Assembly: GCF_011067135.1 (NCBI RefSeq)
Contig: NZ_JAAMOW010000003.1
Location: forward strand, 248,001 to 312,000
Reading direction: 5' to 3'
DNA: 64,000 bases
Source of the DNA: Solimonas terrae
Lineage (GTDB): Bacteria > Pseudomonadota > Gammaproteobacteria > Nevskiales > Nevskiaceae
Shown: in pieces, positions 31,859 to 38,001 of the stretch
Layout: every line of letters begins with the position of its first letter
Numbering within the stretch: the first letter of the stretch is position 1
Made by a program: the position numbers and the translations under genes
Notes under the pieces: model-generated
Seen by the model: the letters and a program-made list of their open reading frames with translations, nothing else
Told to the model about the DNA's origin: nothing
Databases searched by the model: none

Positions 31859-32879
31859 TCATGCCGAGTGCGAGGCCGAAGGCCTCGTGTATCGAGGGAT
31901 ACTGGTGATCGGGTCGCATGCCTCGATACACCGCCTGCGGCGGCACTCGGCATGAACGGGTGGGGGAAAAGGGGGCAAAGCGATTCATTCCACCGTTCGC
32001 CCCGAGTGATCGCGAAGGAATGCTTCGGTACCCCACGCCCCACGCGGCACTCAACATCGACGGATATCGAGGCGGCGGCTCGACCCACCAACCGGGCACT
32101 GGGTGAACACGCGGTGCATTGGGTTGTCTTATCTTCGCCACCCCCCACCGTTCGCGCCGAGTGCCGCGCGAATGCGCGGTGTATCGAGGTGCACGATAGT
32201 CTTGCGTGATTGATTCGCCACCGTATCGAGAGGCTTGCAATACCGTGCCGGGATGACGGGCTTGCGCGCGTGCCTCGATACACCGCCTGCGGCGGCACTG
32301 GGCATGAACGGGTGGGGGAAAGGGGGCAAAGCGATTCAGTCCACCGTTCGCCCCGAGTGATCGCGAAGGAATGCTTCGGCACCCTACGCTCCACGCGGCA
32401 CTCAGCACCGACGGATATCGAGGGGCGGCTCGACCCACCCACCAGGAACTGCGTGAACACGCGGTGCATCGGGCTGCGTACCTTCACACCCCACCGTTCA
32501 CACCGAGTGCCGCGCGAATGCGCGGTGTATCGAGGTGCACGATGGTCTTGCGTGATCGATTCGCCACCGTATCGAGAGGCTTGCAATACCGTGCCAGGAT
32601 GACGGGCTTGCGCGCGTGCCTCGATACACCGCCTGCGGCGGCACTCGGCATGAACGGGTGGGGGAGAAGGGGGCAAAGCGATTCATTCCACCGTTCGCAC
32701 CGAGTGATCGCGAAGGAATGCTTCGGTACCCCACGCGGCACTCAGCACCGACGGATATTGAGGGGCGGCTCGACCCACCCACCAGGTACTGCGTGAACAC
32801 GCGGTGCATCGGGCCGTCTATCTTCACAACCCCCCCACCGTTCGCACCGAGTGCCGCGCGAATGCGCGGTGTATCGAGG
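31859..32879. repeat. REP-like tandem array between trmJ and cysE
   Basis: An inverted element at 31859-31897 (stem GAGGCC-ttc-GGCCTC) is followed by three long units beginning CCTCGATAC at 31921, 32273 and 32619 (periods 352 and 346; the third is shortened and ends at 32879). Each unit contains a forward element with stem CCGCC-tgc-GGCGG, a degenerate inverted one (CCGTTCGCCCCGAGTGATCGC), and an inverted one with stem CCGCGC/GCGCGG ending GTATCGAGG. The cluster runs to 40 bases before the cysE -10. Long open frames across it are repeat artefacts. Confidence 0.9.
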
Positions 32880-32905
32880 TGCATGCGGATCTCGGGCATA
32901 AACAG

Positions 32906-32957: not shown

Positions 32958-33755
32958 ATGTTTGCCCGAATCAAAGAAGACATCGCCAGCGTTTTCGATC
33001 GTGATCCCGCCGCGCGGAACACGTGGGAAGTGCTGACCTGCTATCCGGGCCTGCATGCGATCTGGGGCCATCGCGTGAGCCACTGGCTCTGGGCACATGG
33101 TCTCAAATGGCTGGCACGGCTCAATTCGAATCTGGCGCGCTGGCTGACGGGTATCGAGATTCATCCCGGTGCGCGCATCGGCCGACGTTTCTTCATCGAT
33201 CACGGCATGGGCGTGGTGATCGGCGAGACGGCCGAGATCGGCGAGGACGTGACCCTCTATCACGGCGTGACGCTGGGCGGTGTCAGCTGGAACAAGGGCA
33301 AGCGCCACCCGACGCTCGGCGATCGCGTGGTCGTTGGCGCCGGCGCCAAGATTCTCGGGCCGTTCACGGTCGGCGCCGGTGCGCGCGTCGGTTCGAATTC
33401 GGTGGTCGTCAAGGAAGTGCCTCCCGGTGCGACCGTCGTCGGCATTCCGGCGCGCATCGTGCACGAAGCTGCCGAGCCGTCCGCAGCCGTGGCCGCGATT
33501 GCGAAGAAAATGGGTTTCGACGCTTACGGTCTGTCCCGTGACATGCCGGATCCGGTCGCGAATGCGATGTCGACGATGTTCGATCACGTGCAGCGCCTCG
33601 ACGAGCGGCTGGTGCAGATCTGCCGGCTGCTGCATGAAATGGACTCGCGCATGCCGGAGCTGGAGCTCTCGAAGCTGGAGTTGCCGGACATCTGCGTCGA
33701 TTCGACGTCCGCGCTGGATTCTCTGGCGGGGAATTCGCGTCGCAAGGGTGACTGA
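32958..33755 (+). CDS. cysE: Serine O-acetyltransferase
   Basis: Acetylates serine with acetyl-CoA, the first step of cysteine synthesis. 265 residues: a helical N-terminal region, then the left-handed beta-helix of hexapeptide repeats. The active-site block is [21 protein letters not shown] near residue 76, then [19 protein letters not shown] and [14 protein letters not shown]. The C-terminal approximately 85-residue extension after the beta-helix is longer than the inhibitory tail of E. coli CysE and ends in a variable segment. Start ATG 32958. The gene heads the reduced isc cluster, 49 bases before the first desulfurase. Confidence 0.94.
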
Positions 33756-33804: not shown

Positions 33805-34944
33805 ATGCCCGTCTACTTCGACAACAACGCCACCACGCGACTTGATCCGCGCGTGCTGGAGGCGATGCTGCCCTACCTGTCCGGGCCGTATGGCAATGCA
33901 TCATCGCTGCATCGTTTCGGCCGCGCGGCGCGGGATGCGGTGGAGCATGCGCGCGAACAGCTCGCGCAGCTGGTCAATTGCCAGCCGCGCGAGATCATCT
34001 GGACCTCGGGCGGCACCGAGTCCGACAATCTCGCGCTCAAGGGTGTCACCGAGGGCGCGCGGCCTTCGCGCCTGCTCTACGGTGCGACCGAACATCCGGC
34101 GGTGCTGGAAGCGGCCGAGTCGCTGCGGGCACGAGGCTGGCAGGTCGACACGGTCGCGGTCGGCGACGATGGCGTGATCGACTGGCCGCGCTTCGAGCGT
34201 CAGCTCGCAGCCGGCGCGACGCGGCTGGTCTCGCTGATGCGCGCCAACAACGAGACCGGTGTGATCCAGGATGTCGCGCGCGCGGCCGAACTCGTGCATG
34301 CCGCTGGCGCCTGGCTGCACGTCGACGCCGTGCAGGCCTGCGGCAAGATCGTGGTCGACTTCGCCCGGCTGCAGGCCGATCTGATGAGCGTTTCCAGCCA
34401 CAAGATCTACGGGCCGAAGGGCATGGGCGCCTTGATCGTGCGTGCCGAGGTCGAACTTCATCCCTTGCATCACGGCGGCGTGCAGGAGCGCGGTCTGCGC
34501 GGTGGAACCGAGAATGTCGCGTCGATCGTCGGCTTCGGCGCGGCGGCCGAGCTGGCCGCGCAGGAGCTGGGTTCGCGTGCCGCGCACGTGCGAGACTTGC
34601 GCGAGCGACTGGAGCGCGGCTTGCACGCGCTGCCGGACGCGCGGATTTTTGCCGGGCATGTCGAGCGTCTGCCGAACACGGTGCAGTTCGCGATCGCCGG
34701 GTATGAAGGCGAGGCCTTGCTGATGCAGCTCGATCGTCAGGGCTTCGCGGTGTCCAGCGGCTCGGCCTGCGCGTCCGGGCGTGGCGAACCGAGCCACGTG
34801 CTGCTCGGCATGGGCATCGCGCGCGAGATCGCCGAAGGGGCCATTCGCGTCAGCTTCGGCAAGGACAATACCGAGGCCGAAGTCGACCGTTTTCTCGCGG
34901 CTCTGGCGGGCCTGACGCGCCCGACCGCAATGGCGGCGCGATGA
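33805..34944 (+). CDS. Cysteine desulfurase, class-V aminotransferase (first copy)
   Basis: PLP enzyme that removes sulfur from cysteine for Fe-S and thio-cofactor synthesis. 379 residues: YFDNNATTRLDPRVLEAM at the start, TSGGTESDNLALKG near residue 71, HVDAVQACGKIVVD near residue 172, PLP lysine in SSHKIYGPKG (Lys 200), catalytic cysteine in SSGSACASGRGEPSHVL (Cys 322). Both essential residues are present. It overlaps the second desulfurase by four bases (ATGA). The two copies are clearly diverged, not a recent duplication, and neither has the long IscS C-terminus that binds IscU. Confidence 0.92.
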   Translation: MPVYFDNNATTRLDPRVLEAMLPYLSGPYGNASSLHRFGRAARDAVEHAREQLAQLVNCQPREIIWTSGGTESDNLALKGVTEGARPSRLLYGATEHPAVLEAAESLRARGWQVDTVAVGDDGVIDWPRFERQLAAGATRLVSLMRANNETGVIQDVARAAELVHAAGAWLHVDAVQACGKIVVDFARLQADLMSVSSHKIYGPKGMGALIVRAEVELHPLHHGGVQERGLRGGTENVASIVGFGAAAELAAQELGSRAAHVRDLRERLERGLHALPDARIFAGHVERLPNTVQFAIAGYEGEALLMQLDRQGFAVSSGSACASGRGEPSHVLLGMGIAREIAEGAIRVSFGKDNTEAEVDRFLAALAGLTRPTAMAAR

Positions 34945-36110
34945 TCTATCTCGACTATGCGGCGACGACGCCGCTCGACCAGCGTGTTCGTGACGCGATG
35001 CTGCCCTGGCTGGACGCCGAAACGCAGTTCGGCAATCCGGCATCCGACCATGCGCTCGGGCGCTGCGCGCGCGCTGCAGTCGAGCGGGCGCGCAGCGAGG
35101 TTGCGGCGCTGCTCGGCGCCGGCAGCGACGAAATCGTCTGGACCTCCGGCGCAACCGAATCGAACAACCTGGCGCTGAAGGGGGCACTGGAATTCCGCGG
35201 ACTGCAGGGCGCGCATCTGGTGACCAGCCGCATCGAGCACAAGGCCGTGCTCGACACCTGTCGCTACCTCGAGACGCTGGGCGTGCGCGTCACGTATCTG
35301 ACGCCGGGCGCCGACGGCATCGTCGCTGCCGAACAGGTCTTGAATGCCGTGCGCCCGGACACGACGCTGGTGTCGCTGATGTGGGTCAACAACGAAACCG
35401 GCGCGATCAACCCGGTGGCGGCGCTCGCATCGCAACTGCGTGAGCGCGGCATCCTGTTTCACGTGGATGCGGTGCAGGCTGCCGGCAAACTGCCGATCGA
35501 CCTGGCGCGGCTGCCGATCGATCTGCTGTCGGTGTCGGCACACAAGCTCTACGGACCCAAGGGCGTCGGCGCCCTGTTCGTCCGCAAGCGGCCGCGTGCG
35601 CGTCTGGCGCCGCAGATTCACGGCGGCGGCCACGAGCAGGGCATGCGTTCCGGAACCCTGGCGACGCATCAGATCGTCGGGTTCGGCGCCGCATGCGGGA
35701 TCGCGGCGGCGGCGATGGACGAGGAGGGCAGACGCCTGACCGCGTTGCGCGAACGCCTGTGGCTGGGGCTGCAGGCCTTGCCGAAGATCCATCTGAATGG
35801 CTCGGAAACGCAGCGTGCCCCCGGCATTCTCAATGTCAGCTTCGCCGGTGCCGAAGGCGAATCGCTGCGTGCGATGCTGCCGGAGCTGATGGTGTCGAGC
35901 GGCTCGGCCTGTTCGTCGGCGACGCGCGAACCGTCCTACGTGCTGCGTGCGCTCGGTCGCGACGACGAACTCGCCGGCTCCTCGCTGCGCCTGTCGCTGG
36001 GTCGTTACACGAGCGAGGCGCAAGTCGATGCTGCTGCGGCGCGGATCGTCGAGGCGGTCGGATTTCTGCGTGAGCTGTCGCCGTTGTGGAGCGCCGATGA
36101 GACCGCCTGA
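34941..36110 (+). CDS. Cysteine desulfurase, class-V aminotransferase (second copy, IscS-like)
   Basis: 389 residues. YLDYAATTPLDQRVRDAML is the canonical IscS/NifS opening, TSGATESNNLALKG lies near residue 73, HVDAVQAAGKLPID near residue 174, PLP lysine in SAHKLYGPKG (Lys 202) and catalytic cysteine in SSGSACSSATREPSYVLRALG (Cys 324). The latter motif is closest to group I IscS. The gene is sandwiched by ATGA-type overlaps with the first desulfurase and, about 14 bases, with the IscU-like gene, so the four Fe-S genes form one tightly coupled unit. Confidence 0.93.
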   Translation: MIYLDYAATTPLDQRVRDAMLPWLDAETQFGNPASDHALGRCARAAVERARSEVAALLGAGSDEIVWTSGATESNNLALKGALEFRGLQGAHLVTSRIEHKAVLDTCRYLETLGVRVTYLTPGADGIVAAEQVLNAVRPDTTLVSLMWVNNETGAINPVAALASQLRERGILFHVDAVQAAGKLPIDLARLPIDLLSVSAHKLYGPKGVGALFVRKRPRARLAPQIHGGGHEQGMRSGTLATHQIVGFGAACGIAAAAMDEEGRRLTALRERLWLGLQALPKIHLNGSETQRAPGILNVSFAGAEGESLRAMLPELMVSSGSACSSATREPSYVLRALGRDDELAGSSLRLSLGRYTSEAQVDAAAARIVEAVGFLRELSPLWSADETA

Positions 36111-36492
36111 TCAGAACATCTACGCGTACACCGAACCGGTCTGGCAGCGCTTCCGTGAACCGGCGCATGCCGGGCGTCTGGACGCCGGCTCGCAGGTCTT
36201 CTCCGCGGAGGCCGGCAGCGCCGCGGCGCGCTCGTTGCTGCGGCTGCAGGTCGAGCTTGCAAGTGGTGCCGTACGGCGGGCGCGCTTCCAGGCCTACGGC
36301 TGTCCGTCGGCGATTGCCGTCGGCGAGTGGCTCGCCGAGCGGCTTGAGGCCACGCCGTTGGCGGCGTGGCACGCGATCGACGCTGCCGGAATACGCGCGG
36401 CGCTTGAAATCACCGAGGACAAGGCCCATTGTGCCCTCATGGGCGAGGACGTTCTTCGCGCCTTGTTGCAGACGATGAGTGGCAGGCCATGA
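36097..36492 (+). CDS. Degenerate IscU/NifU-N-like scaffold protein
   Basis: 131 residues aligning with IscU: the segment RARFQAYGCPSAIAVGEWLAERL matches the IscU block with Cys 63, and DKAHCALMGEDVLRALL matches the Lys-x-His-Cys block with Cys 106. These cysteines are Cys 69 and Cys 112 here. The first cluster ligand of IscU (Cys 37 in A-P-A-C-G-D) is replaced by Ala 44, and the adjacent conserved Asp by Ser 46 (SAAARSLLRL). Canonical [2Fe-2S] assembly is therefore doubtful. ATG 36097 overlaps the desulfurase; its stop overlaps iscA (ATGA). No hscB, hscA or ferredoxin follows. Confidence 0.85.
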   Translation: MRPPDQNIYAYTEPVWQRFREPAHAGRLDAGSQVFSAEAGSAAARSLLRLQVELASGAVRRARFQAYGCPSAIAVGEWLAERLEATPLAAWHAIDAAGIRAALEITEDKAHCALMGEDVLRALLQTMSGRP

Positions 36493-36812
36493 GTATCCAG
36501 TTGACCGAAAGCGCCGCCCGGCGCATCCAGCAGCAGATCGACAAGCGCGGCGCCGGCCTGGGCCTGCGCGTCGGCGTGCGCAAGTCCGGTTGTTCCGGTT
36601 TCGCGTACACGATGGACTACGCCGATCAGATCGGCAGCGACGACCGTGTGTTCGAACAGTTCGGATCGAAGCTCGTGGTGCATCCGGATCATTTGCCGAT
36701 GCTCGAAGGCATGACGCTGGATTTCCAGAAGCAGGGCCTCAACGAGGCTTTCAAGTTCGTCAACCCGAACGTCAAGGCCGAGTGCGGCTGTGGTGAAAGC
36801 TTCACCGTCTGA
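36489..36812 (+). CDS. A-type Fe-S carrier protein (IscA/ErpA-like)
   Basis: 107-residue HesB-family protein. The three conserved cysteines are present: Cys 35 in KSGCSGF, and Cys 99 and Cys 101 in ECGCGESF. VRKSGCSGFAYTMDYAD and NVKAECGCGESFTV are closest to IscA. It would take up iron or pass [4Fe-4S]/[2Fe-2S] clusters to apoproteins. It is the last gene of the cysE-desulfurase-desulfurase-IscU-like unit. In Pseudomonas iscA is followed by hscB-hscA-fdx-iscX before ndk; here ndk follows directly, 149 bases downstream, behind its own promoter. Confidence 0.92.
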   Translation: MSIQLTESAARRIQQQIDKRGAGLGLRVGVRKSGCSGFAYTMDYADQIGSDDRVFEQFGSKLVVHPDHLPMLEGMTLDFQKQGLNEAFKFVNPNVKAECGCGESFTV

Positions 36813-37420: not shown

Positions 37421-38001
37421 GCTGCTCCCGCTTCTCTCGGCCCGCTTGCCGGGCACTGGGCGGGCGGGGGCGGGTGTTTGCGGTTCGCGCCGGGCGTCGA
37501 GTTTCAACCAAAGCCCCACCTCACCCAGCCCTCTCCGCCCCAGGGCGGAGAGGGTGCTTGTGTCTTGTCCGGCCGCGTGTGCAGCAAGTCGCTTTGCGCT
37601 CCCGGACGTCCGTGCGCAGTGGGACGGGCTCAGAGCGGCGGGCGCTTGCGAGTCGCGTCGGGTGTCGAGTTTCAACCAAAGCCCCACCTCACCCAGTCCT
37701 CTCCACCCCAGGGCGGAGAGGGTTGTTGTGTCTTGTCCAGCCGCGCGTGCAGCAAGTCGCTTTGCGCTTCCGAACATCCGTGCGCAGTGGGACGGGCTCA
37801 GAGCGGCGAGCGCTTGCGATTCGCGTCGGGTGTCGAGTTTCGACCGCATCCCCGCGTCACCAAACCTTATCCGCCCTGGAGGGGACAGGGTTCTTGTGTC
37901 CCGCGCCACTGCCGGTGCGGTGAGTAATTTCGTGCTCCCCTCCGCCCGCTTGCGGGGGGAGGGGTTGGGGGGAGGTGGGTGCTTGCGATCCGCGCCGGGC
38001 G
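37421..38001. repeat. 168-bp tandem repeat array between ndk and rlmN
   Basis: Unit boundaries at the GTCGAG motif fall at 37496, 37664 and 37832, with the next junction at 38001 (periods 168, 168 and 169), preceded by a partial unit from 37421. Each unit has a CACCTCACCCAG..CCTCTCC section with a CGCCC..GGGCG hairpin. The final unit has the CCCCTCCGCCCGCTTGCGGGGGGAGGGG hairpin also found between secD and secF. Thus the same family was amplified independently at two sites. The array fills most of the 666-base ndk-rlmN gap; no gene is seen in it. Confidence 0.9.

Follow-up and report, generated by a model that had tools for sequence, protein, structure and literature searches.

What becomes of an iron-sulfur cluster scaffold when the system around it is lost? 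The question is raised by a locus in the window, that is, the whole 64,000-nucleotide stretch of Solimonas terrae DNA analysed here (G000:C14:248001-312000, from a genome of 4.42 Mb in 20 contigs, 99.67% complete), where genes for two cysteine desulfurases (NifS1 and IscS2), a degenerate scaffold protein that we call IscU' and an A-type carrier occupy the site of an isc operon. We consider it probable that what remains of an isc operon has become a cysteine-desulfurase module here, in which IscU', a former scaffold, is the standing partner of IscS2 under a takeover by the SUF system. The stripping of the operon, the loss of cluster ligands, the predicted IscU fold, purifying selection and fusion to IscS2 in relatives were computed here; we further infer cluster making by SUF, binding to IscS2, loss of scaffold activity, a sulfur relay and its final acceptor. 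The genes and the junction of most interest are:

nifS1, 33805..34944, + strand: NifS-type cysteine desulfurase, first of an ancestral tandem; Aminotran_5; catalytic His, Asp, Lys and Cys present
iscS2, 34941..36110, + strand: IscS-type desulfurase; Aminotran_5; C-terminal tail shortened; W45R, I314R and M315A relative to E. coli IscS
iscU', 36097..36492, + strand: IscU-fold protein without Cys37 and Asp39; has Cys63, His105 and Cys106 (E. coli numbering); LPPVK stretch changed
iscA, 36489..36812, + strand: A-type carrier; Fe-S_biosyn; all three ligand cysteines
iscS2 end and iscU' start, 36097..36110, + strand: overlap of 14 nt in different frames; this junction is an in-frame fusion in relatives

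The coordinates, the families and the overlaps of 4, 14 and 4 nt along the four genes confirm the anatomy proposed in an initial annotation, which was made from the letters of the window. That annotation missed the spread of the arrangement through the order, the loss of cluster ligands from IscU' and its fusion to IscS2 in many relatives.

Ligand loss, fold and selection in IscU'

Among the 85 genomes of the window's order, its own included (hereafter Nevskiales, where NCBI taxonomy puts Solimonas), the iscU' profile is matched in 78, and the stretches fetched from them mostly show the same gene order; therefore, the four-gene arrangement is not due to chance. Solimonas supplies the closest named matches of IscU', followed by Stenotrophobium, Sinimarinibacterium, Nevskia and others. 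Its sequence is akin to the IscU family, with a NifU_N score of 59 bits, and falls below the cut-offs of both the iscU equivalog TIGR01999 (53.4 bits vs 192.4) and the SufU model TIGR01994 (13.6 bits vs 92.5).

Residues were counted over 55 aligned Nevskiales loci, outside which stand L091, L095 and L096, where tblastn gave no IscU match, and L082 and L084, which hold a full-length NifU. In these last two, from genomes of the window's own genus (G039 and G046), the NifU has all ligands, and NifS-like desulfurase matches lie around it. One alignment (A2) was drawn by a scan pattern containing His-Cys, so that its invariant Cys106 was selected and is unused as evidence. Cys37 is kept in 17/17 canonical proteins, in 0/55 Nevskiales IscU' and in none of 16 rows from other stripped loci. 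Asp39 is kept in 3/55 and the LPPVK stretch is changed. Cys63 and Cys106 are both present in 41 of the 55 loci, and all three ligand cysteines are gone in 11 (the Cys-less members).

These counts bear on the idea of a reduced scaffold, in which IscU' would assemble a cluster on fewer ligands and pass it to IscA without HscBA or ferredoxin. The persistence of Cys63, His105 and Cys106 in most of the order and the retention in the operon of an iscA with intact cysteines would fit it, but the state of Cys37, Asp39 and LPPVK and the existence of Cys-less members do not. Moreover, HscB above cut-off is found in 0/85 genomes of the order, that of the window included, while SufB above cut-off is found in 82/85; weaker HscB matches occur in 62/85, those listed spanning only about the first 60 model positions. 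Such a scaffold seems to us highly improbable.

The retention of the IscU fold is predicted by a structural model with a predicted local distance difference test (pLDDT) score of 92. Also, the contacts that IscU makes with IscS, as given in PMC2854127, are conserved in part across Nevskiales: Tyr3 is kept in 42/55, Tyr11 is Phe in 51, Gly62 is kept in 55/55 and Lys103 is Lys or Arg in 45. IscU' is under purifying selection, the ratio of nonsynonymous to synonymous substitution rates (dN/dS) being 0.19-0.47 against eight relatives (8/8 below 0.5). In a second set, 8/9 comparisons lie below 0.5 and the Cys-less pairs (n=8) give 0.22-0.48; the exception, L079/L101 (0.68), joins nearly identical sequences that are not Cys-less.

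This selection, the presence of the gene in most of the order and the confident model all speak against IscU' being a decaying relic, kept merely to couple the translation of iscS2 and iscA. A relic would also not be expected to fuse repeatedly to its neighbour, as described below. On the side of decay, IscU' evolves faster than the neighbouring genes, its ligands have been lost piecemeal, only weak profile matches for IscU remain in L091, L095 and L096, and a stop lies within the match in G055. On balance, we regard decay as improbable.

Fusion of IscS2 and IscU'

IscS2 and IscU' share a single in-frame open reading frame in 14 of 53 Nevskiales loci; because no stop separates the two frames, a fused protein is made whenever IscS2 is fully translated. 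Both domains were detected in one protein in 4/4 fused loci tested. One such single-chain protein is that of Stenotrophobium (L113, 4819-6381). As a control, in-frame fusion was scored at each junction, giving 14/52 for iscS2-iscU', 0/34 for desulfurase-desulfurase, 0/54 for iscU'-iscA and 0/35 for cysE-desulfurase, and the canonical iscS-iscU junction is fused in 0/33 distinct loci. The fused or separate state requires at least 10 changes on a quick tree, 10 being forced by starred branches. The available text of PMC2854127 places both the C-terminal helix of IscS and the N-terminus of IscU at the IscS-IscU interface, and the short linkers of the fusions fit, since these two elements share it. 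A candidate fusion of NifS1 to IscS2 was rejected, as the open frames of 836 and 908 aa correspond to an other-frame reading of the upstream gene. Among open-licence PMC papers, searched by listing, nothing on point was found for degenerate IscU, for IscS-IscU, NifS-NifU or SufS-SufU fusions, or for IscU with Solimonas.

The desulfurase has changed on the side that faces its partner. In 43 Nevskiales IscS2 rows compared with E. coli IscS, Ile314 is replaced by Arg in 35 and Met315 by Ala in 36; the two positions lie in the IscU-touching helix. Unfused copies run 6 to 15 residues past position 380, vs 25 in E. coli, and the conserved tail is gone.

Other changes fall where sulfur acceptors of tRNA modification bind, and the initial annotation had proposed a dedicated tRNA-thiolation or general sulfur-transfer complex. 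According to PMC2854127, as far as its available text goes, E. coli IscS supplies ThiI and TusA, Trp45 is required for both, and W45R cuts mnm5s2U and s4U to a few percent. In Nevskiales IscS2, position 45 is Arg in 30/43 and Trp in 0/43, whereas Trp is found in 13/13 canonical proteins and in 6/19 IscS of other stripped lineages. The first desulfurases have Arg there in 52/52 printed rows. In the window, the TusA face shows Trp45 to Arg, Glu49 to Ala, Asp65 to Gly and Arg237 to Gln. The ThiI-named positions Phe89, Arg223 and Arg340 are nevertheless kept in 38, 37 and 42 of the 43 rows, respectively, which, like the Trp45 of some other lineages, would suit a thiolation role. With Trp45 gone from all 43 rows, the proposal is not directly supported, and we hold it to be unlikely.

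A relay that resembles those of SufU and SufE deserves more weight, and we regard it as a real, if tentative, possibility. IscU' would then be chiefly a persulfide carrier, from Cys328 of IscS2 to Cys63 and on to Cys106, with tRNA thiolation, SUF or some other acceptor at the receiving end. Besides the joint conservation of Cys63 and Cys106, it is favoured by the E. coli proteins, in which PMC2854127 describes, in the text available, a disulfide between IscU Cys63 and IscS Cys328 and a distance of about 4 Å from Cys63 to Cys106, and by SufU, an IscU-like persulfide carrier already known (PMC8593673, in excerpt). Also, each of the 14 fused loci retains Cys63 or Cys106, and none of the 11 Cys-less loci is fused (Fisher p 0.026, uncorrected for kinship). 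However, those 11 loci hold no ligand cysteine and yet their IscU' remains under constraint; Cys37, lost here, is the likeliest first acceptor in E. coli according to the passages available of PMC2854127 and PMC9769115; Trp45 of IscS is replaced; and a SufE is already present for SUF. For this last reason, we discarded the idea that IscU' supplies SUF with a sulfur carrier that it lacks.

Under the reading of IscU' as the standing partner of IscS2, the order of events would be that SUF takes over, the chaperones are lost and IscU is converted to a partner of IscS. IscU' would no longer build clusters and would most likely dock on IscS2 at the old IscU site in a 1:1 ratio, as a separate chain in the window and within one chain in roughly one Nevskiales locus in four. 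Such standing pairing would remove IscS2 from the role of a hub shared among many acceptors; because of the fusion, a constant 1:1 complex is favoured over a freely shared IscS2. For the window and the greater part of the order, persulfide may pass from IscS2 to Cys63/Cys106 of IscU' and onward, as with SufU for SufS; in lineages without these residues, the part of IscU' could only be to tune, shield or stabilise its desulfurase. IscA, whose cysteines are intact, is probably a carrier of SUF-made clusters.

Several observations weigh against this reading. The fused label is distributed nearly at random on the tree (10 changes against a shuffled mean of 12.4, with 26/500 shuffles as low), and the tree itself was built quickly and contains some long rows. 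In 12/14 fused loci, there is a possible second start codon close to the IscU' part, so that they may also yield a separate IscU' chain. Fusion comes easily to neighbouring genes that overlap, and it can be tolerated without a working complex being formed. The model of the fused protein (pLDDT 83.3, predicted template modelling score 0.83) came without inter-domain error or coordinates. Several IscU contacts with IscS are altered (Gly38, Val40, Lys42, Lys59, Thr60 and Gly64), IscS2 has lost much of the tail by which E. coli IscS holds IscU, and the rapid evolution of IscU' noted above counts here as well. Finally, because Cys-less members exist, a function common to all IscU' cannot need the relay, which is therefore no general function.

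Origin of the locus and distribution of the stripped state

The flanking genes, named suhB, trmJ and cysE on one side and ndk, rlmN, pilF, rodZ and ispG on the other by the initial annotation, encode the same proteins in the same order in relatives, and in E. coli K-12 trmJ and suhB adjoin isc. The site is thus the ancestral isc site, as had been proposed. Likewise, iscR, hscB, hscA, fdx and iscX give no match in the 64-kb window by tblastn with the E. coli proteins (no genome-wide search was made for HscA, Fdx or IscX). A second isc operon, which would have spoken for a decaying locus here, was not found by family search, iscU' being the sole NifU_N match in the genome.

As the initial annotation anticipated, SUF is the other system present. 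On contig 11, a Rrf2 regulator, sufB, sufC, sufD and sufS are consecutive, and sufE is on contig 20, which suggests that clusters in this bacterium are made by SUF. This regulator is one of two Rrf2 members in the genome, both away from the locus. The A-type (Fe-S_biosyn) matches are two, the iscA of the locus and another on contig 17. Apart from the isc pair, there is one more class V desulfurase (L004, G000:C18:150764-151846), beside a 310-aa gene; it may be part of a DNA sulfur-modification system. An IscR-like gene still sits between cysE and nifS1 in Nevskiales families f2, f4 and f5 and in one f6 genus (L077, L079, L080, L089, L092, L093 and L101). In the cluster-ligand region, the IscR-like protein of L079 seemingly lacks the cysteines present in L080, and the L101 locus is near-identical to that of L079.

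Within the window, one more gene may belong to the transcript:

cysE, 32958..33755, + strand: name from the initial annotation; stop 49 nt upstream of nifS1; neighbour shared with many relatives

It is probably co-transcribed with the genes from nifS1 to iscA. A simple consensus scan found no promoter-like site upstream of nifS1. Direct repeats occur on both sides of the locus: three copies with a spacing of about 346 bp and up to 95% identity at 31915-32892, in the trmJ-cysE interval, and a 168-bp repeat present three times at 37469-37972, in the ndk-rlmN interval, whose copies 2 and 3 are 91% and 68% identical to copy 1.

The two desulfurases had been taken as a sign of a new system, and here the comparison gave another answer. 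The comparison covered 15 isc loci, complete or nearly so, that were taken with long flanks from other families in the class, some of them chosen for a known second desulfurase. Nine have two desulfurases (L186, L207-L212, L214 and L217) and six have one (L213, L215, L216, L218, L221 and L222). The tandem loci show the order iscR-nifS1-iscS-iscU-iscA-hscBA, with cysE in front in 8/9 and fdx-iscX behind in 8/9; the L186 stretch stops at a contig end, which interrupts its iscU and iscA. Among 66 desulfurases placed in one tree, all 26 first copies, NifS1 of the window included, form one branch (Shimodaira-Hasegawa-like approximate likelihood ratio test, SH-aLRT, 100*), and 40 second or sole copies, including E. 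coli IscS and IscS2 of the window, form the other (100*). Given this split and the tandem in complete operons, the isc operon that lost hscBA and fdx most likely already had tandem desulfurases, and NifS1 as a recent duplication or import was rejected. In sets that include canonical loci and E. coli, active sites are intact in 143/144 desulfurase rows and in the IscA of 83/84 loci, the sole exception in each being truncated. The complex looks repurposed, as the initial annotation had suggested.

The stripped state is also found beyond Nevskiales. The IscU' profile, which also picks up canonical IscU, matches 259 of 369 genomes sampled across the class; HscB is above cut-off in 157 of the 369. 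Sixty-eight genomes were re-searched (67 with weak matches, plus G428), and 23 with near full-length matches were fetched, of which G116/L186 proved canonical. The other 22 stretches show at least one isc-neighbourhood gene in 18, a desulfurase match in 20, and a match to hscA, hscB or fdx in none; HscB above cut-off is absent from these 22 genomes (best E about 1e-7). In the 16 alignable IscU', Cys37 is gone in all and 12 have no ligand cysteine; L192, L197, L200, L201, L204 and L206 have a profile match only and stand outside these rows. In a hand-picked set of 57, SufB above cut-off is found in 17/22 stripped vs 6/35 canonical-IscU genomes, any SufB/D match being present in 21/22 stripped ones.

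Family f91 holds both states, G169 having a complete isc and no SufB match, and G292 a stripped locus with SufB. Their first desulfurases are sisters (96*), and the flank-gene tree does not group the two genomes. This tree needs six state changes, which suggests a repeated origin of the degenerate state across the class; the suggestion is not firm, because starred branches force only one of the six. Two further arrangements were seen. In L140, L144-L148 and L150-L153 (Competibacteraceae, other metagenome-assembled genomes and one labelled Synechococcaceae), cysE is followed by a divergent Cys37-less IscU and IscA, with no intervening desulfurase match. In Castellaniella (L141-L143), the order is iscR-iscS-IscU-iscA with no hscBA match in the stretch, and the IscU lacks Cys37 and Asp39 and, in 2/3, Cys63.

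Meaning of the module and comparison with known systems

For SUF-dependent Gammaproteobacteria in general, the chances seem to us evenly balanced that IscU became, perhaps on several occasions, a non-scaffold and sometimes ligand-Cys-free subunit of IscS, and that Nevskiales repeatedly fuse the two, giving a pseudo-scaffold that stays permanently on the desulfurase and controls it. If so, a central scaffold can lose its chemistry and persist as the partner of its enzyme, and IscU would have effects on IscS besides cluster building that are hard to separate where IscU also scaffolds. Structural work could use the natural IscS-IscU' fusions directly as single-chain complexes, and these fusions make it testable whether IscS acts as a dedicated enzyme or as a shared sulfur hub. 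Moreover, an annotation as IscU scaffold does not imply a working ISC system. Most bacteria have one cluster system, usually SUF (PMC11559095, in excerpt).

The closest known system is ISC (iscRSUA-hscBA-fdx-iscX), with which the locus shares the chromosomal site, an orthologous IscS, the IscU fold, IscA, the intact active sites of IscS and IscA, and the nifS1-iscS tandem. It differs in having no match for hscBA, fdx or iscR at the site, in an order without HscB above cut-off, in an IscU' that lacks Cys37 and Asp39 and thus does not present the three ligands of a scaffold, in the shortened IscS tail and in the IscS2-IscU' fusions of relatives. The SufS-SufU, SufS-SufE and CsdA-CsdE pairs likewise combine a desulfurase with a small non-scaffold acceptor, and SufU, which transfers persulfide in a zinc-dependent manner, has the IscU fold. 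The Minimal ISC System also joins a desulfurase to an IscU-type protein; however, in the text available of PMC12192291 it has a scaffold and no carrier and is ancestral, whereas the locus of the window is derived by stripping, has SUF alongside and keeps an A-type carrier. Natural desulfurase-rhodanese fusions, described in the accessible part of PMC8931425, also link a desulfurase to a sulfur-acceptor domain, but the domain fused here is a former scaffold, IscU without Cys37. The desulfurase tandem, shared with complete isc operons, is not new, and what is new is an IscU' that loses its ligands and is fused to IscS2 in relatives.

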